Under the pieces are notes generated by a model, which saw only the letters and a program-made list of their open reading frames with translations, had not been told where the DNA came from and did not search any database. The position numbers were made by a program, and so were the translations under genes. Positions 1,289-64,000 of a stretch of 64,000 nucleotides of DNA are shown here, piece after piece. The first letter of the stretch is position 1. Each line of letters starts with the position of its first letter. The stretch is taken from positions 10,308,145-10,372,144 of the forward strand of contig CM067365.1 in the NCBI GenBank assembly GCA_034401795.1. Direction: 5' to 3'. Source of the DNA: Chaetoderma sp. LZ-2023a (Eukaryota; Mollusca; Caudofoveata; Chaetodermatida; Chaetodermatidae).

Positions 1289-1700
1289 GGATCCATCTCT
1301 AGCTATGCCCCGCCCATTTTAGCTACGCCCCCACCCATTTCTATCGAAGCTCCATCCACGCTTTACACGTGTTGGGATTGATTTACATACTTTGAATCAT
1401 GAATTCCTAGAATTCCAACTAACTAGGTAACTATACAAATAACATGTTGAATGTTTTGAAAGTAATTTGGCTGGGTGCTGTTGCTGCCTATGGCAGCAAC
1501 AGTGCCCAGTCAACTTAGTTTCAAAATATTCAACAGACTGTTTATGGCATTAAATAATAAAAACATACAATTCATACACTTGACGGACTATTCGTGTTCA
1601 TGACTTCGCTAGGTGCGCCATTCATAAAGCATTTTGATTGTGACATCAGCCTACATGTAATGTAATTGTTTATGGTGTCATGCACTTGAGTGACAGATCG
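1289..1700. mobile_element. Element A copy (about 400 bp)
   Basis: Contains, in order, a conserved left module (agctatgccccgcccat … cacgtgttgggattg), the palindromic core 1447-1534 (gttgaatgttttgaaa … gctgttgctgcc/ggcagcaac … ttcaaaatattcaac) and a right module (cacttgacggac … gacatcagcctacatgtaa). The same three modules recur in either orientation elsewhere in the window. Non-coding. Confidence 0.7.
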
Positions 1701-1979
1701 CATCAATCTATTGTGAATCAACGTTTGACCTAGTGACCTCAATACAAATGTGATGATTCCTAAGTGAACTTTGTATCCAAGCAATATAGTTCTAGTATGA
1801 TTAACCAATCCCTCAATATAAGCCATCAAATGTTTTGATAAACGCAAAAACATGAAAAGCCATGTACAGCGACTTGAAATTGACCTTGTGAGTTGTGACC
1901 TTAATGCCATTGTACCGATTACAAACAGTAATCATATATTATCAGATAATATTATCACATAATTATAATTCCAATAACG

Positions 1980-2168
1980 TTAACCATTTTACTGTTAAAT
2001 CCCTGAAAAGTGATTTTTTGTGATATAAAACATATTCCGTTGATTATTGTACAATTAATTTGACTGGAAGAGCTTCCAGTTAAATTAATTTCAAAATATT
2101 CAACAGTTTTCCTGCATGGTATGTGTTGAAAATTAGATACATGGGGAATTCATCGGTGAAAGGGTTAA
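1980..2168. mobile_element. T1 palindromic TTAA element
   Basis: Starts TTAACC and ends GAAAGGGTTAA. Short centre gactggaag/cttccagt with arms ttaatttcaaaatattcaac and its complement, and a conserved right flank (gttttcctgcatgg … ggggaattcatcggtgaaag). Non-coding MITE. Confidence 0.75.
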
Positions 2169-2362
2169 CCAATCCGAATATACACAGGCAACAAAACCGT
2201 AAGTGATTCTGAAGCCACAAACACAAAAGGGTCATAGCACATCAGATGATGCTTTGTATAATTTAGATGAAATAATATACATTATTTGCATATTTTTGAA
2301 TTCTTAAATAGTAAATTTCGCCACGAAACATCCTCTTTTTCCACTTTCCATAAGAGTGACAA

Positions 2363-2729
2363 ATGACGTCAGCGTGTGAATGATTGTTGTCGTATGATGT
2401 CATCGCATGAATGATTGTTGTGATATGATGTCATCACTTGAATGATTGTTGTGGTATGATGTGATCGCGTAAATGATTGTTGTGGTATGACATCATCGCT
2501 TGAATGATTGTTGTGGTATGACATCATCGTGTGAATGATTGTTGTGGTATGATGTCATCATGTGAATGACTTGTGGTATGATGTTATCGCTTGAATGGTT
2601 GTTGTGGTATGACATCATCGCTTGAAATGATTGTTGTGGTATGACGTCATCATGTGAATGACTGTTGTGGTATGACATCATCGCTTGAATGATTGTCATG
2701 ATTGTTGTGGTATGACATCATTACGTGAA
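2363..2729. repeat. 31 bp minisatellite
   Basis: About twelve units of gaatgattgttgtggtatga plus catcatcgctt. Variants carry TGACGTCA or near variants, a CRE/ATF-type half-palindrome. The array ends exactly where an element H copy begins. Confidence 0.9.
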
Positions 2730-4551
2730 CAAGAGGCCCAAGGGGCTTGTGTCGCTCACCTGGAGCACTATGCATTTTTGTCAAAATTGTTCGTGGGTGG
2801 TTTAGGAGTAGTTTTTTAAATGAGTTTGTGGACATTTTTGCAAGTCCAATATGGCCGCCAAAGAGGCTACATTTTGATTCGTCCACTGCGGCCATGTTTC
2901 TGACGTAGATCCTTCCCTTGAAAAAACTCAGTGCCTAATCATATCTCACAAATTTCCGTCCAATCCGCTCAGTGGATCTGGAGGTGTTTTGGCAAAAAAT
3001 AGGCTATCGAAGATGGCCGCCAAAACATTTGGCCAATCACGTTCCCTTGAACAAACTTGGTGCAGTTCTTGCCCTAGGTGACAGTTCATGCGTTTTGAAT
3101 TGATCCCCCCAAGCAGTTTTGGAGAAGATTTATAAAGAAATTTCTAAAACTCAAGCAAAATCCAAGATGGCGTGAGAAGAATACATTTTAAATTACCCAT
3201 TGCTTTAGTATGGGAAATTTTGGCAGGTAAATGATCCAAGATGGCCGCTAAACAGCTTATCCGACAGTCTAGAAATGGCAAATTTGAAATCACAATTCAC
3301 AGCAACACACATAAAACCAATTTCGGCCTCAAAATCCATCAAATAAAAAAATCCAATATGGCCACCAAACACGCGCTATATTGATTGGCCCATGGCGACC
3401 AGGTTTTTTGACGGATCAACTTCTCTTGAACAAACTTTAATAGCACTTAGTCCCTAATCATATATCACAAATTTGACAAATGATAAATCAGCGGTTCAGG
3501 GGAAGAAGTAATTTTTGCGAAAACAAGGTCATCCAAGATGGCCGCTGAACCATTTGGTCAATCAAGTTCGCTTGAACAAACTTGGGTCAGCTCTTGCCCT
3601 AGATCATATTTCATGAGGTCTGAATTGATCCGTCAAATGGTTTTGGAAATTTTTAAAGACATTTCTAAAAATCGCCCGAAATCCAAGATGGCCGCCGGCC
3701 AAATTGGCCGATCGGCTTCATTTGAACAAAATGGAATCTCTATGCCCTAAGGATGCTTCCTTCCAAATATAATTGCAATCGGCCCATTAATTCTAGAGAA
3801 ATTTTTAATTTCCCCTTGCTTTAGTATGGGAGCTTTTGGTGGGAAAATGATCCAAGATGGTCGCCAAACCGTTCATCCGACACTTTTGAAAATTGCAAAT
3901 TTGAGATCATAATACCAAAAACATATATAAAAGCAATTTCAGCCTCAAAATTCACCAAATAAAAAAATCCAATATGGCCACCAAAACGCTATATATTGAT
4001 TGGCCTACGGCGACCATGTTTTTTGACGGATCAACTTCTCTTGAACAAACTTTGGTTCTGGAGAAGTCATTTTCGCTAAACTAGGTCAAACAAGATGGTT
4101 GCCGAACCATTTGACCGATCAACTTCCCTTGAACAAACTTTTTTCGCTAAACTAGGTCAAACAAGATGGTTGCCGAACCATTTGACCGATCAACTTCCCT
4201 TGAACAAACTTGGTTTAGCTCTTGCCCTAGATCATATTCCCTGAGGTTTGCGTCAATCCCTCAAGCGGTTTCGGAGAAGATTTATAGACGTTTCTAAAAA
4301 TCGGCCAAAATCCAAGATGGCCACCAGCCAAATTGGCTGATCTGCTTCATTTGCACAAACTTGGATCCCTATGCCCTAAGGATACTTCCTGCCAAATATA
4401 ATTGAAACCAGCCCAGTGGTTCTTAAAAAGAAGTCGTTTAAAGGAAAAGATAATGGATGACGGACGGACGGACACACAACGGACGGACGGACACATGAGA
4501 GACGGTCGCCACGGCATAAGTTCACTTGGCCTATCATGCCAGGTGAGCTAA
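2730..4551 (+). mobile_element. Element H, near full-length copy (about 1.8 kb)
   Basis: Opens with aagaggcccaaggggc and tcgctcacctgg, and closes with gacggacggacgg repeats, a hairpin (ttcacttggc … gccaggtgagct, 4521-4548) and CTAA at 4548-4551. Between them lie two diverged tandem internal blocks of about 600-700 bp, each with several aagatggccgcc motifs, ttgaacaaacttgg and tccaatatggcc. No reading frame of note. The 5' gctcacctgg is the inverse of the 3' ccaggtgagc. A terminal hairpin before CTRR and asymmetric inverted repeats are hallmarks of Helitron and HINE-type elements; this is my best guess for the class. Confidence 0.65.
4070..4211 (+). repeat. 71 bp recent tandem duplication inside element H
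   Basis: Two essentially identical 71 bp units (ttcgctaaactaggtcaaac … cccttgaacaaactt), joined head to tail. Near identity inside an otherwise diverged element shows a local duplication after insertion. Confidence 0.9.
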
Positions 4552-5012
4552 TAATGCTTTGCTGCTTATCGTTGATAGCCCAAAACAGCTTAGTACGATA
4601 TTAGTACGATGCAGAATATTACTAGTGTTTGATAAACTAATTTGAATCTGAGCTAATGTCCAGCTTTGTAAGTCTTATAAGTGTATATGAGATACCAGTC
4701 TCGTCACCTCTGAAAACAAGTGTGATGTAAATCTTAATACACATGGTTGATGATTCACGCGATGATATAATACTCTGTATTTAATGGGTTGTCAAAATTC
4801 ATGACTCTACCCGAAATCTTAACAATGAAAGAGTTTGAAAATTTCTATTTAATTAATAAAATATGATAGCAACTTTTATTTTCGGCGTTTTTATTGAATT
4901 CTAATTCTCGTTTGTGGTCTCCTTTAAGTTATTTTTTAGCAGCATTCTACACTGAGTCAGAGCAATCAGCTCCAAAGCTAATTAAAGAAGGAGAGACATG
5001 TTTAGTACATAC

Positions 5013-5797: not shown

Positions 5798-6164
5798 AAG
5801 TGATATCTTGTGGCGCACAAATCAGGTGTCCATTATATACATACAGCTTAACTGTATACATATCAGATGTTTCTCGTTAAAGATGATTGCAGGTGAGAGA
5901 TTATACAATCATTAATGATCCAGTGCAGCTGTTCTCCACAGGTGATAGCTCTGATGGATGCAGGTCCTGAGCACCGCCGGAGAGCAATAATACTTCTACT
6001 ACAGTTACCATGATCACACCATACGAACCCGCTTTGTGTAGCTCAAAAATTCAGGTTCGTTTTAATTTCTTTCATGACCAAAGTCAGTTCTTGCATTAAA
6101 ATTTGAGCAAAATCGGGCCAGTAGTTTCGGAGTCATAAATTTGAAAATGGACATTTCCATTTGT

Positions 6165-6240
6165 AGCTATATGCCCTGCCCATCTCTAGCTAACCTCCAC
6201 CCACACCTCACTCGTGTTGGGATCAATCGATCCCTGCACT
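6165..6240. mobile_element. Element A partial copy
   Basis: Left module only (agctatatgccctgcccatc … cactcgtgttgggatcaatc) running into a CAGA microsatellite, which may have expanded from its gacagaca end. Confidence 0.55.
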
Positions 6241-6946: not shown

Positions 6947-7390
6947 CTTGCGCGATTATTGCTTTCAGTAATCACGATCGATTATTTAATAATAACCGCG
7001 ATTACTCGATTAATCAGCTTGAGTACAAATTACCCAGTTATAACAGCAAAAAAGCATACCAATGACGAAAGCTGCAATGATGTTGAAAAAGGTCGATTTG
7101 CAGGACAAAAGATTACTTTTGAAAATGTAGCACTTGAATGACTGGCTCGATTCTCGAGCCAGTCATTCCAGTGCTACATTTTCAAAAATAGCCTCTTGGC
7201 CTACAAATGGGCATGCATTCGCTGAGCAAAATGTAAATTTCCGTGACCGATCGCAATAAAGAATAATTAAAAGGTAATATTTTATGCTGTAGAATTATTC
7301 ACGATTATTCGATTATTTAATTTTTAATCATATAAATTCACGATTTAAAAAATAATCGCGATTTTCGATTTAATCGCGTAATCGCGCAAG
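6947..7390. mobile_element. hAT-like non-autonomous element with nested T2
   Basis: Perfect 12 bp terminal inverted repeats CTTGCGCGATTA (6947-6958) and TAATCGCGCAAG (7379-7390), with many aatcgcgatt subterminal motifs. A T2 palindrome (about 7080-7215) sits inside. The left end is joined to a CA microsatellite, so the target duplication cannot be read. Confidence 0.6.
7080..7215. mobile_element. T2 palindrome core, nested
   Basis: Almost perfect hairpin: acttttgaaaatgtagcact … gactggctcga/tcgagccagtc … agtgctacattttcaaaaat, flanked by gatttgcagg and the inverse cctacaaatggg. Confidence 0.75.
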
Positions 7391-8546: not shown

Positions 8547-8674
8547 TTAACTGTCTGACAGTTGCAAACCAACAGACAATAATTTCAATGAACAATAACT
8601 CTGGACATGCTGAATATTTTGCAAACTATTTCACTGAAAGTTGTTGGTGGCTTAGCGGCTTAGATGAATTTTAA
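8546..8674. mobile_element. T3 element, partial
   Basis: Begins TTAACTGTCTGACAG and contains caataactctggacatgctg, then the aatatttt … actgaaagttgttggtggct arm; the second arm is missing. It directly follows the 22 bp array and shares its right TTAA with the next T2. Confidence 0.6.
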
Positions 8675-8886: not shown

Positions 8887-9772
8887 CGGACAGTCACCAT
8901 GGCATCAGCTCACTTGGACAGTCACCATGGCATCAGCTCACTTGGACAGTCACCATGGCATCAGCACACTTGGACAGTCACCATGTCATCAGCTCACTTG
9001 GACAGTCACCATGGCATCAGCTCACTTGGACAGTCACCATGGCATCAGCTCACTTGGACAGTCACCATGGCATCAGCACACTTGGACAGTCACCATGGCA
9101 TCAGCTCACTTGGATAGTCACCATGGCATCAGCTCACTTGGACAGTCACCATGGCATCATCTCACTTGGACAGTCACCGTGGCATCAGCTCACTTGGACA
9201 GTCACCATGGCATCAGCTCACTTGGACAGTCACCATGGCATCAGCTCACTTGGACAGTCACCATGGCATCATCTCACTTGGACAGTCACCATGGCATAAG
9301 CTCACTTGGACAGTCACCATGGCATCAGCTCACTTGGACAGTCACCATGGCATAAGCTCACTTGGACAGTCACCATGGCATCATCTCACTTGGACAGTCA
9401 CCATGGCATCAGCTCACTTGGACAGTCACCATGGCATCAGCTCACTTGGACAGTCACCATGGCATCAGCTGACTTGGACAGTCACCATAGCATCAGCTCA
9501 CTTGGACAGTCACCATGGCATCAGCTCACTTGGACAGTCACCATGGCATAAGCTCACTTGTACAGTCACCATGGCATAAGCTCACTTGGACAGTCACCAT
9601 GGCATAAGCTCACTTGGACAGTCACCATGGCATAAGCTCACTTGGACAGTCACCATGGCATCAGCTCACTTGGACAGTCACCATGGCATCAGCTCACTTG
9701 GACAGTCACCATGGCATAAGCTCACTTGGACAGTCACCATGGCATCAGCTCACTTGGACAGTCACCATGGCA
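8887..9772. repeat. 28 bp minisatellite related to the element H tail
   Basis: About 31-32 units of ggacagtcaccatggcatca plus gctcactt. The unit matches the last part of element H (gacggtcgccatggcataag plus ctcacttgg, as at 42935-42960), so the array seems to have grown from an element end. Confidence 0.93.
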
Positions 9773-10335: not shown

Positions 10336-10520
10336 TTAACCCTTAACACTCTGATGTAAAAACTTGAAATTTTCAAATTAATTTTCAACAAATTTGGTGG
10401 GAGATGGTGCCGTCATAGAAAGCAACATCGTCCACCAAAATTGTTGAAAAATGTATACCAGTTTCTTTTCTATTGACACAGTAAAAGATTGAATATTGAC
10501 ATCAGAGTGGTAAGGGTTAA
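10336..10520. mobile_element. T4 palindromic TTAA element
   Basis: TTAACCCTTAACACTCTGATGT at left and the inverse GACATCAGAGTGGTAAGGG plus TTAA at right; inner arms ttcaacaaatttggtgg/ccaccaaaattgttgaa. Shares its right TTAA with the following T1. Confidence 0.8.
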
Positions 10521-10690
10521 CAATTTCACTGATGAATTCCGCATATCTTCTTTTCAAGGCAACCATACAGGTAAATTATTCAATATTTTGAAAGTAATTT
10601 GATTGGAAGCCATTTCTGCCTTAGGCAGCATTAGGGCTTAAGGCACCAAGGGCTTCTAGTCAAATTAATTTCAAAATAATTTCCCTGTTA
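10517..10690. mobile_element. T1 element, right end lost
   Basis: TTAACAATTTCACTGATGAATT, then caaggcaaccatacagg, arm aatattttgaaagtaatttg and the inverse near 10658-10675. The expected right half is replaced by a TGGTCGACCA-type repeat. Confidence 0.6.
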
Positions 10691-10694
10691 AATT

Positions 10695-10945
10695 ATCATA
10701 GTCAAACAATAGTTGATCAGGGTTAAACTATGGTTTTGACCACAATCACCCATGGTTTAACCATGGTCGACCATGGGTTGTAAATGACATCATGGCCAAA
10801 CCATGATGAACCATAGTCAGTATGATAAAAAAATCGCTCAAGATCACAGACTCACCACGGCTCAAACATGGTCGACTATGGTCAATGGTTTTGACCATTT
10901 TTTTACTATAGCCGACAGCTCGAGCATGGTCAGACCATGTTTTGA
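10695..10945. repeat. TGGTCGACCA-rich palindromic repeat, first copy
   Basis: Dense CCATGGTCGACCATGG-type motifs (accatggtcgaccatgggtt at about 10759, atggtcgactatggtc at about 10867) and single caaaccatgatgaaccat half-sites. Non-coding. Related to 49940-50690. Confidence 0.6.
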
Positions 10946-12522: not shown

Positions 12523-12945
12523 TTAACCCTTTCACCAACAAATCCAGGAAAACGTATATCTTTACAATATAAACTTATTCAGTTGAATGTCAGTCCAGAA
12601 CTAGTTCACGACGGCACTACCACAGCATTATTTCAAATTTCATTAATCATAATCTATGTTTTGCTCTAATATGATATCATAATTGATATATATGATTATT
12701 GACTTAACAAAATCGCATTTGTAACATAGGGTCTGCAATTTTCTTCCATGGTAAATATTTGACGCGGCAAATTAAGTTTTTTTACCATGGCATTGCTAAT
12801 TACTGTGGCATTAATCTTGAGGGCTGATATTTTGAAATTAATTTGAATAGAAGCTGTTGATGAGCTTCCAGTCAAATAAATTTCGAACTTTTTGACAGTT
12901 TTCCTTGAAAATGAGAGATGGGAAATTCACCGTTGATAGTGTTAA
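12523..12945. mobile_element. T1-like element, long internal region
   Basis: TTAACCCTTTCACCAACAAA at left and accgttgatagtGTTAA at right; a T1 palindromic centre lies at about 12833-12890. The interior is about 200 bp longer than in other T1 copies, so another sequence has been inserted. Confidence 0.55.
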
Positions 12946-14949: not shown

Positions 14950-15278
14950 CGGTCAGTCAATCATTTGACATCATAATCATGCAACTATGTGACATGTAGG
15001 CTAACATCATAATCAGTATGTCATGAATGACACAATTTACTCCATCATAAATGCTTAATAGTCCGTCAGGTCGTGTGAATTGTATGTCTACTATTTAAAA
15101 AAAATTCTGTTGAAGCGCCCAGTCAAATTAGTTTCAAAATATTCAACAGCTTAGCTGTTTAGTTATCTGGATACTGAGATTCAAAAATTACAGAGATCAA
15201 TCGGGCAAAGCGTGGGTGGAGCTTAGCTACTAGCTAGACATGGGCAGAGCACAGCTAAAACTGGATTGTTCCATTGAT
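14950..15278. mobile_element. Element A copy, opposite orientation
   Basis: Modules appear as in 49505-49885: gacatcataatc … cttaatagtccgtcagg, half of the palindromic core (agtcaaattagtttcaaaat plus attcaacag), then agagatcaatcgg … agcacagctaaaactggatt. Confidence 0.65.
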
Positions 15279-15679
15279 AAGAGGAACATAATCGGCCAAA
15301 ATTTATTTGAATCCAATAACAACTCACATGCAAGAAATAAACATCCTCTCTTGGTGTCGCTATCAACTAGACATTCACAAACTGAACATAAAACAGTACT
15401 TTTACAATAAACTTACCAATGTCTTCTGTTTAATCCACGTACGTATAATCTCTTATGAGATTTACCCAGGCTCCAATACAACGCGATCTTGAACATACAT
15501 TACTATACAATCCTCCTAAGCGTATGTGTATATCGAGTACATTACTAGGCAGTTCAATAAATCCATAAATGCCCATCAAATAACCATCCGCTCATAAACT
15601 GCTGATGCTAAAATCCACTGTTGTAATACTACTAATCACAATAACACACATTTATTTGACTTAAATAAAACAATTTCTC

Positions 15680-15770
15680 AATATTTTGAAACAATTTTAC
15701 TGGTTATTGTTACTGGCTAAGGTACCAACCTTTAGTAAAATTTATTTCAAAATTATGTTCAGTATTTCAA
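15680..15770. repeat. Isolated palindromic core
   Basis: Inverted arms caatattttgaaacaatttt and aaaatttatttcaaaattat around ggttattgttactggct. No TTAA-type termini seen nearby. Confidence 0.45.
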
Positions 15771-15942: not shown

Positions 15943-16145
15943 TTAACCTTCTACACTCATAAATCACCGAAAAAGATATACTCTTTATGATATATAAAAC
16001 TTATTCTATTGAATATTTTGAAATTAATTTGACTGGAAGCCTTCGACGGCTTCCAGTTAAATTAATTTCAAAATATTCAATAGTTTTCCAGTTGTATGGT
16101 TGCCTTGGAAATGAGATATGGGGAATTCATCGGTAAAAGTGTTAA
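15943..16145. mobile_element. T1 element
   Basis: TTAACCTTC at left, GAAAGTGTTAA-like right end; almost perfect hairpin aatattttgaaattaatttg plus actggaagcc/ggcttccagt and inverse. Shares its right TTAA with the next T2. Confidence 0.8.
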
Positions 16146-16373
16146 CCCTTTAACACTCATATCCGACAAAAAATGGCTTCTACAGTGGTCTTGAGAAATG
16201 TCCATTTTCAGACCAAGAAGACTATTTTTGAAAATTTACCACTGGAATGACTGGCTCAGTTATCGAGCCAGTCATTCTAATGGTACATTTTTTTTAAATA
16301 GTCTTCTCTTGGTCTACAAATGGACATTTTCTACGAGAAAATTTAAATTTTCTTGAACGAATTCGAGGGTTAA
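16142..16373. mobile_element. T2 element, well preserved
   Basis: TTAACCCTTTAACACTCAT … GAGGGTTAA. Flanks ggcttctacagtggtcttga and tttaaattttcttgaacgaa frame arms gactatttttgaaaatttac and inverse; centre actggctcagttatcgagcc. Nearly the family consensus as judged from the copies here. Confidence 0.85.
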
Positions 16374-16848: not shown

Positions 16849-16894
16849 AACTATTTCAGGTTATTTAAAATTCTACTCACTATAGTAATCAAGA

Positions 16895-17108
16895 GATCCA
16901 TTATTCTAGCTAAGCTCCACCCATATTTTTGCATACAGGTTGGGGTTGAGTTCAAATATACTTTGAACCCTGAATGCTCAGTTCCCATTTTCAAAATATC
17001 AATATATCTAGGTAAGCTGTTGAATATTTTCAAACTAATTTCATTGGTGCTGTTGATGCCTATGACAGCACCAGCGCCAAGTCAAATTAGTTTCAAAATA
17101 TTCACCAG
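16895..17108. mobile_element. Element A partial copy
   Basis: Left module (agctaagctccacccatatt … ttggggttgag), ctaggtaagctgttgaatat and the palindromic core (ctgttgatgcctatgacagc). Its right module is replaced by a T2 element. Confidence 0.6.
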
Positions 17109-17110
17109 AA

Positions 17111-17346
17111 TACCCTTTAACACTCATCCAAGCCAAAAGCGTCTTCTGCAGTGGTCTTGAGAAATGTCCATTTGCAGACCAAGAGATTATTTTTGAAAAT
17201 CTATCCCTGGAATGATTGATTCGATAACCGAGCTAGTCATTCCAGTGATAGAGTTCCAAAAATAGTCTTCTCTTGGCTTGCAAATGGACAGTCAATAAAT
17301 AAATATTTTGATTTGATTTTCCACATTTTATCATTAAAGATTTAAA
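17111..17346. mobile_element. T2 element
   Basis: Left CCCTTTAACACTCAT; hairpin ttgaaaatctatccctggaa … ttccagtgatagagttccaa; right side ends cattaaagatttaaag, a diverged terminus shared with 24722-24957. Confidence 0.7.
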
Positions 17347-20515: not shown

Positions 20516-20520
20516 AGGCG

Positions 20521-22000
20521 TTGCTGTGATAATGCATATTGCTGTGATAATGCATATTGTCATGATAATGCATGTTTATGTGATAATGTAAGTTATTGTG
20601 ATAATGCATGTTGCTGCGACAATGCATGCTGTCATGATAATGCACGTTTATGTGATAATGCATGTTGCTGTGATAATGCATGTTGTCATGATAATGCATG
20701 TTTCTGTGATAATGCATGCTTATGTGATAATGCATGTTGCTGTGTTAATGCATGTTGTCATGATAATGCATGTTGCTGTGATAATGCATGTTGTTGTGAC
20801 AATGCATGCTGTCATGATAATGCATGTTTATGTAATAATGCATGTTGTTGTGGTAATGCGTGTTGCTGTGACAATGCATGTTGTCATGATAATGCATGTT
20901 TCTGTGATAATGCATGTTGCTGTGATAGTGCATGTTGCTGTGATAGTGCATGTTGCCATGATATGTTGCTGTGATAGTGTATGTTGTCATGGTAGTGCAT
21001 GTTGCTGTAATAATGCATGTTGCCATGATATGTTGCTGAGATAATGCATGTTGCTGTGATAGTGTGTGTTGCTGTTATAACGCATATTGCCATGATAGTG
21101 CACGTTGCTGTGATAATGTATGTTGCCATGATATGTTGCTGTCATAGTGTATGTTGCTATGCATGTTGCTGTGACAATGAATGTTGTCATGGTAGTGCAT
21201 GTTGATATGATATTGCATGTTGCTGCGATAATGCATGTTGCAGTGAGAACATGTTGCTGTCAATGTGATAATACATGTGGCTGTGATAATGCATGTTGTC
21301 ATGATAGTGCATGTTGCTGTGATAATGCATGTTCTTATGATATGTTGCTGTGATAATGCATGTTGCTGTGATAATGCATGTTGCAGTGATAATGCATGTT
21401 GCAGTGATAACCTGTTGCTGTGAATGTGATAGTGCATGTTGCGGTGATAATGCATGTTGTCATGATAGTGCATGCTACTGTGATAGTGCATGTTGCCGTG
21501 ATAATGCATGTTGTCATGATAGTGCATGTTGCTGTGATAGTGCATGTTTCTGTGACAGCGCATGTTGTCATGATAGTACATGTTGCTGTGATAGTGCATG
21601 TTGCTGTGATAATGCATGCTGTCATGATAGTGCATGTTGCTGTGATAGTGCATGTTTCTGTGACAGTGCATGTTGTCATGATAGTACATGTTGCTGTAAT
21701 AATGCATGTTGTCATGCCAGTGCATGTTGCTGTGATAGTGCATGTTGCTGTGACAGTGCATGTTGTCATGATAGTGCATGTTGCTGTGACAGTGCATGTT
21801 GTCATGATAGTGCATGTTGCTGTGACAGTGCATGTTGTCAGGAAAGTGCATCTTGCTGTGACAGTGCATGTTGCTGTGACAGTGCATGTTGTCATGATAG
21901 TGCATGTTGCTGTGACAGTGCATGTTGTCATGATAGTCCATGTTGCTGTGATAGTGCATGTTGCTGTGATAATGCATGTTATCATGATAGTGCATGTTGC
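20521..22000. repeat. 18 bp minisatellite, array 2
   Basis: About 82 units of the same 18-mer as array 1. The left part is mostly gataatgcatg…, the right part (from about 21420) mostly gatagtgcatg…, showing block-wise homogenisation. Bounded on the right by a T3 fragment. Confidence 0.95.
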
Positions 22001-22113
22001 CAACAACACCTTTCCGTCAAATATATTTTCATACTATGCAACAGGTCCAGAGTTATTGTCCATTGAAATTAGTGTCTGGTGGCTTGCAACATTCAGACAG
22101 TTAAGAGTGATAA
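22000..22113. mobile_element. T3 element, right half
   Basis: ccaacaacacctttccgtca … caggtccagagttattgtcc, attgaaattagtgtctggtg, ending cagacaGTTAA. The left half is missing at the array junction. Confidence 0.6.
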
Positions 22114-24957: not shown

Positions 24958-25057
24958 AAGGGCCAGAACAATAACATAATACTCTAGGTGTGGAGGGTTA
25001 AATTCAACCAGCTTAACTTTTTAATGATATATTCTGAAAGCATCACGCAGGAAAGCA

Positions 25058-25120
25058 GTTGAATATTTTGAAAATAATTTGACTGGTCATCTAGATAAAT
25101 AAATTTCAAAATATTGGCAA
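25058..25120. repeat. Isolated palindromic core
   Basis: gttgaatattttgaaaataa plus tttgactggt, then aaatttcaaaatatt; the centre is reduced to tcatctagata. Confidence 0.5.
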
Positions 25121-26186: not shown

Positions 26187-26340
26187 TTAACTCTTTCACT
26201 AATGAAACTGGATTTTTAAACCTCAATTTGAATGTAACCATATAGGAAAGTTATTGAATATTTTAAAATTAATTTGAACAGTTTCCAGACCAATTAATTT
26301 CAGACTAGTTGAAAAAGTCCTCGGTGAAAGTGTTTCACAA
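26187..26340. mobile_element. T1 element, diverged
   Basis: TTAACTCTTTCACTAATGAA; arms attgaatattttaaaattaa and ccaattaatttcagac; right ctcggtgaaagtgttt. Confidence 0.65.
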
Positions 26341-26679: not shown

Positions 26680-26892
26680 ATTTAGCCCTTACCACTCTGA
26701 TGTCAATATTCTATCTTTTAATGTGTCTATACCGGAGAAACTGGGGTACACAATTTTCAAAAATGTTGGTGGACAATGTTGCTGTCTACGACAGCATCAT
26801 AGTCCACCAAATTTGTTGAAAAATTAACACCAGTTCATCTTTTAATTAAATTTGAAATTTTAAAATTTTGACATCAGAGTGGTAAGGGTTAA
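26680..26892. mobile_element. T4 element, well preserved
   Basis: CCCTTACCACTCTGATGTCA at left, inverse TGACATCAGAGTGGTAAGGG plus TTAA at right. Inner hairpin aaatgttggtggacaatgtt … tccaccaaatttgttgaaa with a gctgtctacgacagc loop. Confidence 0.85.
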
Positions 26893-33796: not shown

Positions 33797-33941
33797 CGCG
33801 CCAAGTCATCATAAAATAAAGCATGACTAATATGGACATTGGTGTCGGTTAATGTTCTTGTGTACACGATACTAAATTAAAATCTTCATTCATATGCAAT
33901 CTGTTTTCCTGCTGAATTTCTGCAGACTACATTTTCCATGG

Positions 33942-34085
33942 GTTTTAACTCTGGACCTGTTGAATATTTTTAAAACTAGGCCACCAAAACCCTTCAGTCA
34001 AATTGTTTTCAAAATATTCAGCAGATCCAGAGTTATTGCCCATTGAAATTACTGTTTGGTTGCTGGCAGCAGTCAGAGAGTTAAG
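33942..34085. mobile_element. T3 element
   Basis: ttttaactctggacctgttg … agcagatccagagttattgc, then attgaaattactgtttggtt, gcagtcagagaGTTAA. Inner arms gaatatttttaaaactagg and gttttcaaaatattcag. Confidence 0.65.
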
Positions 34086-37435: not shown

Positions 37436-37479
37436 CGGTTCGGTCCTAATTGAGGGATTCATTTTTAGATATCATTTTT

Positions 37480-37870
37480 AGATATTCCCAGCCCATTTCT
37501 AGCCAATCTCCGCCCACGGTTTCCGGATGATGGGATCGACATATACTTTTAACCCTGAATTGCCACAATCACAATATAAAGATGACTATACAGGTAAACT
37601 GCTGAATATTTTGACAATAATTTGACTGGATGTTGTTGCTTCCTATGGTATCTATCAACAGCGCCTAGTGAAATTAGTTTCAAAATATTCAACAGAATGT
37701 TTATTAAATAGTAAATCCATTATCAGACATACAATTTGTACACTTGACAGACTTTTAAACGTTCATGATGCAGCTAGAAACATCATTCATTACACATTTT
37801 TATTATGACATCAGTCTACCTGTAATGTACCAATAATTGATTATGATGTCATATACTTGCGTACCAGACC
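37480..37870. mobile_element. Element A copy, near complete
   Basis: cccagcccatttctagccaa … gatgggatcgac, actatacaggtaaactgctg, core aatattttgacaataatttg, tgttgcttcctatgg, aaattagtttcaaaatattc, then cacttgacagac, gacatcagtctacctgtaat, gatgtcatatacttgcg. Confidence 0.7.
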
Positions 37871-37963
37871 ACACCTCTCCATTCTCATGCCCTGGTCGAT
37901 GGTGCTAAAGACGTAATATCTATATCACAATGACACCAATTATACAGGTAGTTAATCACTTAC

Positions 37964-39115: not shown

Positions 39116-39659
39116 GATTGATTGAGGTTTTTCAATGCGGCTGTAGATATTTCTAACCAACTTGATCATTGTTGATGATGGTGATGATGAGTAGCGGCTG
39201 TGTTCTGCAGCTGAAGGAGTGAAAACTTCTTTCAGTTACAATCAATTTTTCTGCAACCTTCTCCACTGTAAGCATCCTGTGCTCCTTCACGTTCTTTTGT
39301 CTTTAGTGGGCCTTAAGATTGCGTTCTTTGAGGTCTGACCACAAAACACATAAGTTGATGTAGTGGTGTCCTTTGCGTGTCTTATACCTGTTGGCACCCA
39401 TGACTGCAAATTCTCATGCTTTATGAGCAAGCACTTTTTCTGGCATTCAAAGAATATGTCCAAACATAAACAATCACTGTTATACTACTCTCACAGACAT
39501 GGCTCTGTTAAAGCTACTTCAGTGGCTAGTTTTCAACGGCTTCAGCATGAAAGCGTTAACCCATTGACCATTGAATTCCCAGAATCTGAATTGCCGATAT
39601 ACAGGTACTGTACAACTCAGAAATAACTTAACATATTTCCAAAACAAAATAAAAACTTA

Positions 39660-39770
39660 CTGTTGAATATTTTGATCATAATTGGATTGGATTGGAAGAG
39701 CAATTGTTGATGCAATTAGCACACACACTTCCAATTCAATTATGTTCAAAATATTCAACGGAAGATTTCT
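39660..39770. repeat. Isolated palindromic core
   Basis: ctgttgaatattttgatcat plus aattggattgg and inverse ccaattcaattatgttcaaa plus atattcaacgg; centre attgttgatgcaat. Confidence 0.65.
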
Positions 39771-40059
39771 TACTAAGTAACAAGACGTGTCGGTTTCTAT
39801 TTTGGAAACATGTGAACTTAATATTTGCTGTACTGTAAGATGGCAAGTAATTTGAAACCAAGTTGACAGCAACTTGTTGCTGCGATAGGCAACAACAGCT
39901 TCACCGCCATATGAAGCAAATTCCACCTCCCAGTCAAATTAGTTTCAAACCTTTAACAGAATATTTATTAAAATGTAAATTAGTTTCCAAATTTGACATT
40001 TTAGCTTCAACAGGTTAAAATATTAAGAAGAAATGTCCACGATATCGTAACCCAATGGA

Positions 40060-40740: not shown

Positions 40741-41029
40741 AAAGATACATATCCTAGTGAAATTCAGGACTATTTGTTACTTTATGGACACTTTAACTAA
40801 CTAGAAATGTAGCTGCCATTTTAGATAGATATTTGCAAGCGCCATTATGTCAGAATCTATTGTCTACGCCAGTGCGCAATTGTTGGTATAAAAGCATTTT
40901 CGTAATGCTAGTCATTCTTCTTCTGGCTTCCACGGTGAGCGCTATTAGAAGCGCATAGCATGGTTCGATACTAGTTGTATATTTCCTATAGTGCAAGTGA
41001 CAACAAACATATTTATAACAAGTTTACTG

Positions 41030-41230
41030 AAAACTGTTGCCTACTAGCAGCAACAACTTTCCGTCAAATTGTTGTCAATATAATCAGCTGATAATACAAT
41101 TGTCACTAGATAAAAGTGTGACAACGATTTAGCTGAAAATCATTGATGCAACAACTTTCAATCAAATTGTTCACAAAATAATCAGCAGTGCACTGAATGT
41201 TGCAAGACTTGCTGAAAATATTTCGAGCAA
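41030..41230. repeat. Two palindromic cores related to T3
   Basis: tactgaaaactgttgcctac … caacaactttccgtcaaatt plus gttgtcaatataatcagc, then ttagctgaaaatcattgatg … tttcaatcaaattgttcaca plus aaataatcagc. Confidence 0.5.
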
Positions 41231-44350: not shown

Positions 44351-44475
44351 GGGGGCCAAAAACGGCTTCTGAAGTGGTGTCTTGGGATAACCGAGCCAGT
44401 CATTACAGCGCTAAATATTCAAAAATAATGTTCTGGTCTGTAACTTGACATTTTCTTTAAAAATTCAAGGGTTAA
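44351..44475. mobile_element. T2 element with left arm deleted
   Basis: ggccaaaaacggcttctgaa, then directly the second arm gataaccgagccagtcatta … AAGGGTTAA. Shares TTAA with the next T4. Confidence 0.7.
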
Positions 44476-44677
44476 CCCTTAGTACTCTGATGTCAATATT
44501 CTATCTTTTACCATGTCAATAGCATAGAATTGGTGTACATTTTTTAACAATTTTGGTGGACGGTGTTGCTGTCTTCGACAGCACCATCTTCCACCAAATT
44601 TTTTGAAAAATGTACACCAGTTCGTCTTAATTTAATTTGAAAATTTAAAAATCTGACATCAGTGTAGTAAGGGTTAA
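44472..44677. mobile_element. T4 element
   Basis: TTAACCCTTAGTACTCTGAT … catcagtgtagtaagggTTAA; hairpin aacaattttggtggacggtg and inverse, loop gctgtcttcgacagc. Confidence 0.83.
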
Positions 44678-49284: not shown

Positions 49285-49490
49285 CATTATCATACTTCTC
49301 TTGTGTCCATCCATAACCCATCCACCCGCAACATTAGGGCCCATTATCTTACTTTTCTTGTGTCCATTCATAACCCATCCACCCGCAACATCAGGGACCA
49401 TTATCATACTTCTCTTGTGCCCATCCACAACCCATCCACCCGCAACATCAGAAATTCACCAACACACATCCACCCATAACATCAGGGTCA
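49285..49490. repeat. About 57 bp tandem repeat, three to four units
   Basis: Unit cataacccatccacccgcaa plus catcagggaccattatcata plus cttctcttgtgtccatc. Confidence 0.88.
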
Positions 49491-49504
49491 ATGGAGGAAT
49501 CCAG

Positions 49505-49885
49505 TTTTTTTTATCAATCATGACATCATAATCAACAATGTCCCATGTAGGCAGACATCATAATCAAATACATCATGAATGACTTGATTTAGTCCATCTT
49601 AAATGCTTAATAGTCTGTCAGGTTGTACCATTTGCATGTCTTTACAAATTAATAAACATGCTGTTGAATATTTTGAAACCAATTTGACTATGCGCTGTTG
49701 CTGCCATAGTTTCAAAATATTCAACAGCTTACCTGTATAGTTTTATGGAAATTGAGATTCAGAGAGTGCAGGGATCGATTGATACCAACACATGCAAAGC
49801 ATGGGTGGAGTCTAGCTCTAGTCTAAATAGAGATGGGCAGGGCAGAGCTAAAACTGGATTCCTCCATTGTCATGCTTCTCTTGTG
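49505..49885. mobile_element. Element A copy, near complete
   Basis: gacatcataatc, atgaatgacttgatttagtc, cttaatagtctgtcaggttg, core gctgttgaatattttgaaac … tttcaaaatattcaacagct, tacctgtatag, gcagggatcgattgatacca, ggtggagtctagc, agagctaaaactggattcct. Confidence 0.72.
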
Positions 49886-50690: not shown

Positions 50691-51021
50691 GAAAAGAGAG
50701 TAGTGTCAATTGTCATGCTTCTATTGCTACAATGTGCAGTTCACCCAGCTTGCCCACGCCCACATCATTAGGGACCATTCTCATGATATCAGAGCGGAAT
50801 AATTTAGTGACAGACACAGCAGAAGCAAATGAGTTAATCTTAAAATCTTAAATAGATAAATCCTCATTTCAGCGATGGCCACCAGATAACTATCAGACAA
50901 CACAGGTACATATACATAATATATGGACAACACGGATATATATATATAAATATATTACAAATTACAATGGATCGACAGGAATCATGCGTTTGAACACCTG
51001 TATAAATTATATCTGTACAAA

Positions 51022-51219
51022 CAAATCCCGGAAAACGTACTATATTCTTTACGATATAACTTAAATTCTGTTAAATAATTTGAAATTAATTTGACTGGAA
51101 GCTATTGCCACCTAAATGGCAGCAACAGTTTCCAGTCAAATTCATTTCAAAATATTCAGTTTTCCTATATGATTGCCTTGGAAAAAGAGATATGAGTAAT
51201 TCGTCAGTGAAAGAGTTAA
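51022..51219. mobile_element. T1 element
   Basis: aaatcccggaaaacgtacta, hairpin tttgaaattaatttgactgg plus aagc and inverse, loop attgccacctaaatggcagc, right gtcagtgaaagaGTTAA. Confidence 0.75.
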
Positions 51220-52599: not shown

Positions 52600-52772
52600 T
52601 TGAATTGTCTGGTTGCTGTAAGCTACAATACAATAACTTCAATGGACAATAACTCTGGACCGGCTGATTAATTTGAGAACAATTTGATTGATAGTTGTTG
52701 GTGGCTTAGCCACAAACAACTTTCAGTCAAATTGTTTTCAAAATATTCAGCAGGTCCAGAGTTAAACCCAAT
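52600..52772. mobile_element. T3 element, well preserved
   Basis: gtctggttgctgtaagctac, caatggacaataactctgga plus ccggctg, hairpin acaatttgattgatagttgt plus tggtggct … agccacaaacaactttcagt plus caaattg, ending caggtccagaGTTAAA. Confidence 0.75.
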
Positions 52773-53530
52773 GGAAAATTTAGTCCACAGAAATTCAGCA
52801 GACAGTCAATTAAAGGAAACCTAATTTGAGGCAGTGCTAGCTACTCTGGTGATAGAAAATACAATAACAGAATAAAAGATGTGATTTTCAGATTGATAAC
52901 ATGTTTTAACATGCTGTAGTGAAATTTTGATGCAATAATCTGTATCATGGAGATTGCAGCTAATGATTTTTCAGCCATGTGTGTGCCGCGACCAAGCTTA
53001 TGATGCAACAAGAGTGCCAGGAAATTTAGAGTCAAATAAATTACACTGAAAAAAGGAATTCAATTTATGGTCGTTGAGTTATAAATCGGCATTTCTTAAA
53101 GTTAATTAATTAAATACATGCTGATAAAAGATTGACATTGCTGGTACATACTTTCAATATTTGGGATGTGTTTTAACGATATCTTACCGTTCATCTCATC
53201 AAAGGTAAATATGTGCATACCTGTATTATACCTATATTTTTAATAGAAGCACATCACCTAGCTTTGAAATATACATGTATGTGCTCCAATGATTTCCTAG
53301 CAGTTTCAAAACACTAAAACTCTGTATTAGTAGCCCACCCCCTAACGTAGCAGTTTGTCGAGGGAAAAAATATTTTAAGACCAAATTTATGTATCAACCA
53401 AGTGGTCTGCCGTAGGAGTCTACCGTACTGTGCATCCATCTTGACAGTAATATTAAACGTTCAACATAAAATGATCCAGAAAAGAATCAGACGTACTTAA
53501 ATATTGCTTGAACGCCTGAGAAATTAAAAT

Positions 53531-55500: not shown

Positions 55501-55959
55501 TTTTATATCAAAAACATGTAACATCATGTATAGTACTATAATTATGTACTGTATTAAACAACTATAAATTGGGGAAAGGACACACTAAACTATTCTTTCT
55601 TAATTGACAGGTACTCATCGACATGATATGAGAGCACAAACATATCTTTCACACTGTGAGGAGAATTATTCTAAAGAGAAGTTGAAGAGTACCAGCCAAT
55701 CGTCTACCCATAAATGAGTGTTAACTTGCCATGTATTCTTCAACTTGGGTTATGGATTTAATAGTCTGTGTAGAAAAGATATAATATATGTACCGTCCAT
55801 GGCGTGAGAAGAATGTCAATTATGCCGGGTAACAATATTTGGTACTGTCATCTTTCTACCTACTGGATGGGATATTCACAAGGATCTTATAACCTTAATA
55901 TGACAGCGGTGGATGACATTTTGAGGGAATTAGCCCATAGTTCAGATATTTACTGAATT

Positions 55960-56115
55960 TGGCTTCAAAATCCATCAAATACAAAAATCCAACCTGGCCA
56001 CCAAACACGCTAGTTTTTGATTGGTCCATGGTGGCCACGTTTTTTTACGTTTCAACTTCCCTTGAACGAACTTTAATGGACTTAGCCATAATTCCCGAAA
56101 TTTTGGCTGGCTAAA
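55960..56115 (+). mobile_element. Element H internal fragment
   Basis: ggcttcaaaatccatcaaat, aaaaatccaacctggccacc, ttgattggtccatggtggcc, caacttcccttgaac. Confidence 0.6.
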
Positions 56116-57463: not shown

Positions 57464-57631
57464 TTTATGCCTTACAACACTGATGTCAATATTCTATCGT
57501 TTACTGTGTCAATATCAAAGAAACTGGTGCACATTTTTTCAACAATTTTGGTGGACGATGATGCTGTCCAGTTCAGCTTTTAATTTAATTTGAAAATTTT
57601 AAACTTTGACATCGGATTAGTTAGGCTTTAA
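57464..57631. mobile_element. T4 element, partial hairpin
   Basis: gccttacaacactgatgtca, tcaatattctatcgtttact, ttcaacaattttggtggacg; second arm mostly lost; right gacatcggattagttaggct plus TTAA. Confidence 0.65.
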
Positions 57632-57887: not shown

Positions 57888-58465
57888 AAGAAGGCCCAAG
57901 GGGCCTGTATCGCTCACCAGGAACTATGTTCGGGCATTTCAACTACATGTAGAAAGGTCATCGGCTTTAAGTAGACCCCTATGGCTGTGGCAAGAATTGT
58001 AACAAGAATAAAGATGCGTCCTACCAAATTTGGTTAGAATCTGTCCAGTAGTGCAAGAAGACATTTGAAATTTTCCATTGCCGTACTATGGAAGTTTTTG
58101 CCAGGAAAAAAAAAATCCAAAATGGCCACCAACCGGAACCGGTTTATCCGACATATCTGATTGTTACGAAAATGGCAAATTTTAAATCAGCATACCCAAA
58201 AATGTTATCAATACCAATTTTGGCTTCAAAATCCATCATATAAAAAATTGCAATATGGTCACCAAAATGTGATTTGTCGATGGTGGCCATGTTTTATAAT
58301 GTAGCAACCCTTCTTGAACAACCTTGAATGGCTTTTAGTCACTAAACGTCATACATGTATTTCCCGAATTTTGGCCCGATCCCTTCAGCAATTCAGAAGT
58401 TGTTTTCAGGAAATGTAGATCATCCAAGATGGCTTTCGAAGTAATTGAGCCATTAAGTTCCCTCA
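57888..58465 (+). mobile_element. Element H 5' part
   Basis: gaaggcccaaggggcctgta plus tcgctcaccagg, atccaaaatggccaccaacc, tggcttcaaaatccatcata, atcatccaagatggctttcg. Breaks into element A at about 58480. Confidence 0.6.
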
Positions 58466-58479
58466 AACTTTGGCAGCCC

Positions 58480-58647
58480 TAGGCAGCAACAGCACCCAGT
58501 CAAATTAGTTTCAAAATATTCAACCGCTTACATGTATGGTTTTCTTAAAGTTGATAGTCAGGGAGTTCAGAGATCGATCGATCCAAACACGAGCGAGGTG
58601 TTTAAATAGAGATGGAAGGGGCATAGCTAAAACTAGAACGGTCCATT
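58480..58647. mobile_element. Element A right part
   Basis: aggcagcaacagcacccagt, caaattagtttcaaaatatt plus caacc, cagagatcgatcgatccaaa, agctaaaactagaacggtcc. Interrupted by the hAT-like element that follows. Confidence 0.6.
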
Positions 58648-60322
58648 GTAGGGGTGGCCGATATTGATTAAGCCATGATGATATGATATATCATTAAAAT
58701 ATCGCGATATCACGATATATCATCAATCGGGTGGTGTGGGGTTTAGGATGTAGACATAGAATTAGTTATTTACAATTTGTGGCGCCTACATTATTCTCAT
58801 TAAAATCATTGCATTCAAACCATGAAATGGCATCACTAATTTCGCATATTTATTGAATAAAAATACACGAAATTCCAAAGTTTGAAAGCCTTCAATATAC
58901 AGTTTAAAGCAATAAATGTAATGTAACTAACCGTTATTCAGTACAGATAAGAGACATAAGGTTTTTTCACCTATTCAAGGAATTGTTCTTTGTGTTGTCT
59001 TTACCCATGACGAACGGTCAAAACAGTCGTCATTATACATGTTATAGAGATATAGCAATGAAGTGCGCATTAACACCCTTGCGCAGAACAAAAGAATTCT
59101 GCTTAAAGAAACTTAATTGGTCGCTGAATCATACTTGAACCAATCAGAATTCACACTGCAGAAATAGTATGACTGCTTTCACCGAGTGAGCTTAGGCCCT
59201 GAGTAAAGTATCTACTCGACTAACTCACTAACTCGAGTTACCAGAGTAGCGCCTAAGCAGCTAGAGTTTGTATACTCTAATATTTATGCAAGGCTATGAG
59301 GCAGGGTAAATCGATTAAGTGACGTGTTACTATTGAAATCAATGTAATTTAAACACGTGATACATCTACCCTTGTCTACTCAAGGGTAGATGTTTACCAT
59401 AGAGAGGTACAGGTTTTCGATTAAAATCACTCACGCACGGATGACATATGATCTCTGTGGGTAGCCTGGATGTGTGAAATTAACCCAGTTAATGACGCAC
59501 TGGCGCAACAGATAGGATATTTTTTATTCCATAGAAAATACTTAAATAATCTTTAATCAAACATGTTGGTCATTTTGACTAAATCAGTAATGCTTAACGT
59601 GATGTGAATTCTCAATTGAATTACTTTTAAAATACCACAGTGTAATATTTTTACAGTTATTTAAAATGGATTTTTATGCATTTGGGAAGAAAATGGTTAA
59701 CACATTGTCTGTTAGTTAATGGTAAATCATGAGATGCCACCTCACCCACCAATCCAGGATTAAGTGTGGTTTCCTATCACCCTAAACAAGTTTGAAGTCA
59801 AAATTGTTCAGGATTAGAACACTGTTAAAACCGAGCTGGCCACGCGCTGGTCGATCAGTTGTAACTTGACGTGTAGTAATGACGCCATCAGAATAGAATG
59901 CGGGAAGGGAAGTGCAAAAGGTATTTTTCCCACTGACTAATATTCAAAATGTGTCAAGCTTAGATGAATAAAAAAATGCTGTAGTAAATTTATGTAGGTG
60001 CAAAATGTGAACAACAAAAGATTATTTTATAGGTGAAATAATTTTAATTAGCGCAAACAAACCATTGATTAATTTAACAAGGCTTACTTTGGAGCTTAAT
60101 ACATTTTTTATTACCAGTGCAACAAAGAATGGAGTATTAATAAAAAAACTACTACTTAGCGGAAGACATTTAAGAATGTGGTATTTCTAACTTATTTAGT
60201 CAAAACAAAGTGATATACCATCATAACGATATTTAAAAAATTTCGAAATTATGACGATTTCGACATCGATATTTGATATATCGCGATTTTCACGATAATA
60301 TTGAAAAAATGCCCAACCCTAC
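58648..60322. mobile_element. hAT-like non-autonomous element (about 1.67 kb)
   Basis: Ends GTAGGGGTGGCCGATATTG and CATTTTTTCAATATT-side closing atgcccaaccctac, i.e. imperfect inverted GTAGGG(G/T)TGGnC. Subterminal tatcgcgatatcacgatata clusters at both sides. Target duplication not clear. No transposase frame. Confidence 0.65.
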
Positions 60323-60743: not shown

Positions 60744-61001
60744 CCAGCTCCAACTTCTTCTTTTCGTTCGCTGATCATACCGCCAGTCCTGTAAGTGACT
60801 ATCGACATGATCATAAGCGTTAAGTGCGTGGATCCATGGTTTATTAGAGTGCGCCGTGCGGCCTGGAACCTCCGTCTTCAGCACTCGAGGTTTCTGTCAG
60901 GGTTACCTCACCCTTACCTCCTTTAGTCGCCTCTTACGACACGCAGAGGATACGGAAGGTGTATTCTAAGCCCCACCTACAGGGCAACCCAGCTCCAACG
61001 A
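60744..61001 (-). mobile_element. SINE with 11 bp target duplication
   Basis: CCAGCTCCAAC at 60744-60754 and 60991-61001 bracket a full copy. Least diverged of the minus-oriented copies relative to 17950-18208. Confidence 0.88.
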
Positions 61002-62940: not shown

Positions 62941-62948
62941 TTACTTAC

Positions 62949-63014
62949 CTCTGTAAAATCAAGTTCTTGAGTTGGTGACAAACCATCGGCCCAATGCAAT
63001 CTTTTCTTAACACT
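62949..63014 (-). CDS. 66 bp coding exon candidate, probably same gene
   Basis: Minus strand: acceptor tattcacag, 22 codons (SVKKRLHWADGLSPTQELDF, then TE), consensus donor GAG|gtaagt. Phase 0 at both ends. The KKRLHWAD segment resembles the general shape of a protein-phosphatase-1 docking motif (basic residues, hydrophobic, any residue, aromatic, acidic), but this is only a resemblance. The intron to the next candidate exon at 38038 would be about 24.9 kb. This is the most upstream piece seen; the window ends 1 kb further with only TTAA-type repeats. Confidence 0.6.
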
Positions 63015-63477
63015 CTGTGAATAGCAACATCAAAGTTCAGTTTAAAACAGTACAATTTATAACTGCGACCAGCCTTACCATATTAGACATATCCTATCGA
63101 ATAGTTAAAACTCTGAAAATAATTTAAACGGCAGAATTGCTTTCGCTAGGGCTGTGCGATTTTATAAGAAACAAAAACCTGTGAGGACATTAATCATAAA
63201 ACTTGTTTTAATTTATTGAATTCTAATAATCATCAGCATTTGTGCGAACAAGCAGATTCGTAATATATGTACCGTGAAAATAGAATGTTGTGGGTTTTTT
63301 GTTGCTGTAGCTTTGAATGAGTAGCTAAAGTTATGACAATGTTTAGTAGCCACCGCAAATCTGAACTCACATCAATCTACAGGGATGTGATCGATTTCGA
63401 GGAGAAAAATAGGAAATGGCTCAATGCGATTTGTCAGTCCTTCTTTCACTAAAAATGTACATGATCTCTTAAGCCAG

Positions 63478-63702
63478 TTAACCATTAAATTGTCAAGCGA
63501 GTCAAAAAGCCTATGCAATGGTCCTGAGAATTATCCATTTGCCTGACAAGATAAATCATTTTTTGAAGATTTACCACTCGAATAACTGGCTCGGTGAACG
63601 AGCCAAAACATTTTTTCAAAATTTGTCTTTTCTATTCCTGCAAATGAACATACACTATAAGCACAAATTTATATTTTCATGACCAATCTGACCATTAAAG
63701 GG
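63478..63702. mobile_element. T2 element, diverged subfamily
   Basis: gTTAACCATTAAATTGTCAA; tgcaatggtcctgagaatta, centre actggctcggtgaacgagcc, right ccattaaaggg. Confidence 0.65.
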
Positions 63703-63867
63703 AAAAGATTACACTATTTGTGTAAGTATGATGCTTCTTGAAAATCTGGCCAACAAAATTATAGGATTTCCTACAAACCTGGGTAGAAAAAAATAGGATT
63801 TCCTATAAAGATAGGCAAAATCTCATCACTCAAGCTATTCATTCAATTTTGTGCTTAAGTTTTCATT

Positions 63868-64000
63868 AGCCTGTTCACACATAAATATCTCATTTTCAAG
63901 GCAACCACGCAGGTAAACTAGAATATTTTGAAATTAATTTGACTGGAAGCTGATAATAATTTTCTTTCATTTACCACTGAAATGAGAGGCTCAATAAATG
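63868..64000. mobile_element. T1 element cut by window edge
   Basis: tcacacataaatatctcatt plus ttcaaggcaaccacgcaggt, then aatattttgaaattaatttg plus actggaagc, followed by unrelated sequence. Confidence 0.55.

Follow-up and report, generated by a model that had tools for sequence, protein, structure and literature searches.

Among described systems, the CMITEs of Acropora corals offer the nearest comparison for the elements treated here: these miniature inverted-repeat transposable elements (MITEs) are of the piggyBac/TTAA type and bear CCC-type ends (Wang et al. 2010, PMC2872659). They are ~100 bp long, and their 75-bp internal region differs less between families than the ends do; the internal variants of the first eight elements found sort by family, a single exception aside, and one composite family, CMITE-IN, has arisen by nesting (PMC2872659). 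For piggyBac elements, CCCTT is reported as the most conserved terminal motif (PMC10813416), and in MER6 a MITE carries a conserved internal SINE V domain stemming from a separate element (PMC6887750). Here, we describe a palindromic hairpin core that recurs in several repeat families—named T1, T3, A, and T4—within a stretch of 64,000 nucleotides (the window) from the mollusc Chaetoderma sp. LZ-2023a (GenBank assembly GCA_034401795.1, contig CM067365.1, positions 10,308,145 to 10,372,144 of the forward strand). Probably, T3, T4, and A, together with inner T1, form one clan of TTAA MITEs that diverged around a slowly changing palindromic centre.

The hairpin elements likely belong to the same kind as the coral CMITEs. 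Both are short and non-coding and carry TTAA ends, the clearest T3 end (CCCTTTCACC) has a CCC-type terminus as in CMITEs (compare CCCTTTCACTGCCA of CMITE family VI), and in both, families with different ends have a common, better-conserved internal region. Also, T1 may be a composite similar to CMITE-IN. This likeness is one of organisation and termini, the compared sequence being limited to the published CMITE termini (Table 1 of PMC2872659). Unlike the ~100-bp CMITEs, complete T3 and T4 copies measure ~185–206 bp, and a long palindrome forms their common centre; neither "hairpin" nor "palindrom" occurs in the text of the coral paper. With the piggyBac superfamily, the elements may have the TTAA target duplication and CCCTT termini in common, the superfamily being read here from the ends only. 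Foldback and long palindromic MITEs, of which Galileo (PMC4168063) is an example, are likewise non-coding and fold back as whole elements, but here it is the inner palindrome, not the termini, that is common between families. As in MER6, a conserved domain lies within a MITE, but very limited searches (one pattern against viral_contigs, with 0 matches, and Rfam) found no outside source of the core.

The initial annotation of this stretch had considered the hairpin system as not known from the literature. Among the titles and abstract openings listed, no description of this particular hairpin was found, which does not prove its absence, and a literature search by sequence strings listed only works that, to judge by their titles, seem unrelated. 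The same inside-out conservation is, however, present in the coral CMITEs (PMC2872659, the sole publication found to link CMITEs with piggyBac). On present evidence, the hairpin elements are a familiar sort of transposon with a single uncommon feature and do not amount to a new system. They add a further case of CMITE-like inside-out conservation, in a mollusc, where the conserved part is a long palindrome; if this pattern holds genome-wide, the function of the middle of a MITE becomes testable.

The hairpin core and its families

The core consists of the arm CTGTTGAATATTTTGAAAytAATTTGACTGG, a loop, and the inverse of the arm; the loop motif gttgctg...cagcaac, which had been noted before, is indeed present in several copies. 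An un-iterated profile, derived from a single hairpin each of T1, T3, and A and relied on for comparing the core with chance, detects 28 separate loci in the window at E<1e-3 (~1 per 2.3 kb) and 32 at E<0.01, three of them seeds, while each of 10 dinucleotide shuffles yields 0 at either threshold; at E<1, it detects 40 loci versus 0–2 in the shuffles. This bears out the earlier observation of a palindromic core common to T1, T3, and A. An iterated profile had given 34 loci before, but drifts and is hence not relied on for chance. Folded as single-stranded DNA, eight of these 34 loci all show foldback (z −4.5 to −15.9).

The family names were undefined in the initial annotation and were matched to repeat families by content. 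Flanks sort many copies into T1 (six with core, 232–411 bp as present in the window), T3 (~190–205 bp when complete), and A and T4 (four copies each), with X as a fifth palindromic family that lacks the core. These are MITEs by their features: short, non-coding, present in many copies and with inverted ends, which in complete T3 and T4 copies carry inverted TTAA. T4 had been described as having a different arm, a description that does not hold: its arm aligns with the core over its length, none of 300 palindromic shuffles reaches the similarity of the T4 core to the T1, T3, or A cores, and a T4-free profile detects three T4 copies (E 3.6e-7, 1.9e-4, and 0.0038) and a fourth weakly (E 0.35).

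For T1, a composite structure is probable, with a T3-like element nested in a longer one, since its inner part—starting with TTAACCCTGAATTGCC in the copy at 37473—matches T3 and its outer ends differ (CAATGGAGGAATCCAGTTTT, read from one copy with both ends). Centre-less T1 pieces at 6146–6224, 23200–23345, and 48576–48656 are all one-sided; the last still continues into T3-like sequence, and the other two represent one outer part only. As none of these pieces in the window is an empty host without the T3-like centre, the nesting is unproven.

In whole-consensus comparison, X is unlike T1, T3, and A (z ≤1.9) and only slightly similar to T4 (z 5.4 and 4.7). X copies are abundant, at 985–1200, 7072–7250, 11030–11169, 16142–16373, 16640–16849, 17112–17300, 24538–24960, 33593–33795, 43937–44153, and 63501–63701; their ends, where readable, are TTAACCCTTTAACACTC and resemble those of T3 and T4.

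Cores had also been reported to occur alone at 15680, 25058, 39660, and 41030. All four are matched at E<1e-3. The cores starting at 15678 and 25056 lack a flank match at a threshold of 55—set from shuffles, with random places in this repeat-rich window reaching 75 at the 99.9th percentile—and that at 41008 matched only its neighbour at 41115. The core at 39660 is not clearly alone. A T3-type TTAA end at 39556, ranking 10th of 966 in the end comparison below, lies 104 nt from it (usually ~60), and its left flank matches the T3 copy at 16007 with a score of 58 versus the threshold of 55.

Core, flanks, and element ends

Core type and flank family go together. For 18 of 22 copies, the nearest core belongs to the same flank family, whereas the best of 5000 label shuffles reaches 14; restricted to T1, T3, and A, 14 of 18 copies agree, a count that 3 of 5000 shuffles attain. 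The four misfits are the cores at 49661 and 33957, which are both shortened and nearest to each other, the core at 51068, and the diverged one at 39660. This comparison comprises 22 of the 34 core loci; the other 12 have no clear flank family (15678, 24332, 25056, 26089, 26583, 26980, 27075, 34862, 34979, 39846, 41008, and 41115). Its labels are not blind, as the T3/T4 split was made after seeing the cores, and flank clustering places the T3, T4, and X sides in one group of 21, partly since these elements abut.

The families were believed to be otherwise unrelated, which is not borne out by their g-side flanks. After removal of the core, these flanks still resemble each other between T1 and T3 (z 9.8), and those of A are weakly similar to T1 (z 4.7) and T3 (z 3.9), with 0 of 300 shuffles reaching any of these values; T1/T3 consensus alignments also extend past the core. 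In these flank comparisons, as in those of arm identity and of core versus flank, the core at 25056 was counted as T3, although its flank gives no clear assignment to that family.

The centre changes far more slowly than its surroundings. Expressed as the share of within-family similarity that is retained between families, the core scores 0.86 for T1/T3, 0.72 for T1/A, and 0.66 for T3/A, and the 60-nt g flanks score 0.27, 0.05, and 0.05, respectively (17 copies: six T1, seven T3, and four A). The core minus flank difference of the mean ratios bootstraps to 0.53–0.74, with background scores that were self-chosen and held fixed. For T1, T3, and A, the internal region is, hence, more conserved between families than the ends, as described for CMITEs.

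Within the core, family differences are found alike on both arms at four positions for T1/T3, six for T1/A, seven for T3/A, and 8–11 in pairs with T4 (column 62, a loop position, is included for T1/T3 and T1/A). Thus, the founders of the families seem to have been largely symmetrical again. A further 7–12 core positions per family pair changed unequally or on one arm. Within a copy, arm identity lies above both inter-copy means in three of nine copies, so that present copies look like decaying relics; upkeep of the hairpin in individual copies is rejected on this ground. Percent identities of arms have a high shuffled floor (~0.56–0.69) and carry none of the main claims.

The typical element ends are TTAACNCTTTCACYRATGAATTCC for T3, TTAACCCTTACCACTCTGATG for T4, TTAACCCTTTAACACTC for X, and TTAACTGTCTG for A. 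TTAA is present at both ends in three T3 copies, two T4 copies, and one X copy among those checked, and at one end only in four others. At two sites—T3/X at 16142–16145 and T4/T3 at 10517–10520—two elements adjoin on a single TTAA, as is expected for insertion at TTAA. A matrix of eight T3 ends, scored over all 966 TTAA contexts of the window, places these eight at ranks 1–8, followed by two additional T3 ends at 9 and 10; the X ends rank 12 and 14, and the A ends 16, 18, 21, and 38. Compared with the CC[C/T]T motif after TTAA in piggyBac-type MITEs, T4 and X read TTAACCCTT, T3 is variable (TTAACCCTT, TTAACACTT, TTAACTCTT, TTAACCATT, and others), and the A ends (TTAACTGTCTG) deviate.

Core homology, concordance of core and flank in the labelled copies, homologous one-sided flanks in T1 and T3, mostly TTAA among the readable ends, and a slow centre are directly supported. 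The one-sided flank homology, the concordance, and the TTAA ends together argue for one diverging clan and not for a moving cassette, and we regard such a clan as the probable origin of T3, T4, A, and inner T1. Its members would be short non-coding palindromic MITEs inserting at TTAA, laid out as TTAA, an arm of ~60 nt, half of the palindrome, the loop, the second half, an arm, and TTAA. Judging from the ends, they were probably mobilised by a piggyBac-type transposase encoded elsewhere; the autonomous partner would then be a piggyBac transposon with TTAACCCTTTCAC ends. The families would derive from one another, core and flanks diverging together with a centre far slower than the arms, and the flanks of A would go back to the common clan as well. 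The slow centre would most likely be a cis-acting site in active copies. The fuller proposal—a selected dimeric-protein or cruciform site whose symmetry is rebuilt with each new family—appears unlikely; the 4–11 positions per pair that differ alike on both arms speak for it, and the 7–12 that changed unequally or on one arm speak against it. If it were true, the families would be united by their centre and not by their ends.

Several observations weigh against the clan. Because the core itself served to find the copies, core similarity is inflated, and part of the slow centre is ascertainment. The 60-nt flanks of A are nearly unrelated to those of T1 and T3 (excess 2.0 and 2.3). Flank pairs that involve the other (t) side, with the core removed, show no clear similarity: z is −0.3 for T1t–T3t, 1.1 for T3t–Ag, −0.2 for T3t–At, 1.2 for T1t–Ag, −0.1 for T1t–At, and 1.4 for T1g–At, and T3g–At is marginal (z 2.4, 4 of 300 shuffles). 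In whole-consensus comparison, T4 and T3 score above the highest null value in just one of the two orientations (50 versus 43, the other giving 42 versus 43), and T4 and A in neither (39 versus 39; 40 versus 42). TTAA occupies 8 of 9 readable anchored ends in T3, 4 of 5 in A, 4 of 6 in T4 (a fifth having TTAA displaced by one base), and 2 of 4 in X, where the readable ends were chosen because they look end-like. The T1 element's own ends are not TTAA. T4 ends rank modestly under the T3-end matrix (17, 25, 26, 53, and 83 of 966), and unlabelled TTAA contexts take ranks 11, 13, 15, 19, and 20. Also, no transposase, autonomous partner, or empty site was seen in the window.

Alternative origins of the hairpin

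The initial annotation had favoured a modular hairpin cassette, that is, a separate core captured by several MITE families, at least by A. The part of this idea that stands is measured: the core keeps 66–86% of its within-family similarity between families and the flanks 5–27%, the flanks of A are almost unrelated to those of T1 and T3, and several core relics have no assigned flanks. What speaks against mobility between families is that core type co-segregates with flank family in 18 of 22 copies—an agreement that had itself been named in advance as the outcome refuting a cassette—and that the g flanks of T1 and T3 are homologous right beside the core. Neither a target duplication around the core nor an empty element was seen by eye in the copies of the window. 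We hence judge a general cassette unlikely; capture of the core by the lineage of A alone is possible, because its flanks are so different from the others.

Alternatively, the core might itself be mobile, a small palindromic MITE of ~90 bp with repeated insertions into other repeats. Relics such as those at 15678 and 41008/41115, which lack family flanks, would fit, as would the palindrome of A, which reaches TTAACTCTGGACC on one side. However, each family has its own recurrent flanks, which in T1 and A are found on both sides, so the families were amplified as wholes; the copy alignments, inspected by eye, show no constant target duplication at the edge of the core. This makes repeated insertion of the core improbable.

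A hairpin RNA gene of the microRNA type that is repetitive by chance was considered in view of the strong foldback in all eight copies folded, and is very improbable. It is rejected since the hairpin elements have no Rfam match at the gathering score and their arms are not consistently more alike within a copy (three of nine), with no clear sign of fold upkeep per copy; a tRNA search of the elements gave no match either. Helentron/Helitron-type elements carry a hairpin near one (3′) end and have no inverted ends. Such elements with tandem repeats are reported in the Pacific oyster (PMC7492417), and the present window is rich in minisatellites; since the hairpin is here central and inverted TTAA-type ends flank it on both sides in several elements, this origin is rejected as next to impossible.

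Feature coordinates and other content of the window

The elements and relics are collected in the table below.

Table. Hairpin elements, X element, and core relics in the window (positions of the window; ranks refer to 966 TTAA contexts)
Element	Coordinates	Strand	Core	Ends and remarks
T3 copy	15943..16145	+	16006-16083	TTAA both ends, 203 bp; perfect hairpin when folded
T3 copy	1980..2168	+	2037-2106	TTAA both ends, 189 bp; ends rank 1 and 6, both among matrix-building ends
T3 copy	12523..12945	+	12827-12898 (remnant)	TTAA both ends; left arm apparently split by ~230 bp insertion (by eye)
T3 copy	10517..10711	-	10579-10680	adjoins T4 at single TTAA 10517-10520; other end from BLAST
T3 copy	51015..51219	+	51068-51159	TTAA only at 51219; left end approximate
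T3-like copy	26187..26336	-	26254-26308	150 bp; TTAA left end only
T3-like relic	39556..39800	-	39660-39761 (hairpin)	T3-type TTAA end at 39556; other end approximate
T3 fragment	63885..63954	-	one arm	
T1 copy	1314..1697	+	1445-1536	probable composite (T3-like centre within longer element)
T1 copy	37473..37883	+	37599-37695	inner TTAACCCTGAATTGCC in g-side flank
T1 copy	14952..15292	-	15114-15149 (one arm)	
T1 copy	49489..49874	-	49661-49727 (shortened)	outer ends CAATGGAGGAATCCAGTTTT inverted
T1 part	16880..17111	+	17017-17108	cut by X element
T1 part	58452..58687	-	one full arm	
A copy	52601..52813	-	52661-52753	palindrome extended by TAACTCTGGACC; TTAA at 52813, TGAA at 52601
A copy	33909..34084	+	33957-34024	TTAA end at 34084
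A part	8547..8656	-	one arm	TTAA end at 8547
A part	21985..22104	+	one arm	TTAA end at 22104
T4 element	10336..10520	+	10380-10461 (diverged)	TTAA both ends, 185 bp
T4 element	26682..26892	+	26747-26833 (diverged)	ends TTAG and TTAA
T4 element	44472..44677	+	44532-44620 (diverged)	TTAA both ends, 206 bp
T4 relic	57464..57631	+	57524-57603	
X element	16142..16373	+	no detectable core homology	palindromic; TTAA both ends, one (16142-16145) common with T3
Core relic	15678..15753	+		no assigned flanks; folds back
Core relic	25056..25115	+		BLAST match to T3 extends ~12 nt past core
Two neighbouring core relics	41008..41188	+	41008-41090, 41115-41188	

The window has a G+C content of 38.5% and few long open reading frames; minisatellites are numerous and interspersed repeats dense throughout. 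A Pfam search of 10 of its 63 open segments returned C2H2 zinc-finger, weak coiled-coil, and other matches, all under their curated cut-offs; none of the 10 matched a transposase. The zinc-finger similarity lies in an open frame at 11641–11943 (zf-H2C2_2, E 8.6e-9, under the curated cut-off).

One array, at 29488–32994, is a minisatellite of ~90 copies of a 39-bp unit that are 92% alike; it is open over long stretches and includes an open reading frame of 557 aa on the minus strand (31106–32779). Another, at 8888–9772, holds ~32 copies of a 28-bp unit, 96% alike, and further arrays lie at 18738–19797, 20520–21980, 36618–37436, and 38051–38721.

Two further repeats were noted. One (17947–18193, 23904–24150, 40530–40661, and 60754–60987) is 94–98% alike over 132–247 bp, carries CCCTGTAGGTGGGGCTTAGAATACAC on one strand, and is apparently far younger than the hairpin elements. 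The other, a dispersed repeat, is rich in CCAAGATGGCCGCCAAA-like words and occurs as several diverged copies in a single orientation (2842–4430, 54716–56092, and 58009–58356). Finally, CATGGT/ACCATG words are repeated at 10730–10940, forming by eye a run of short palindromic motifs.

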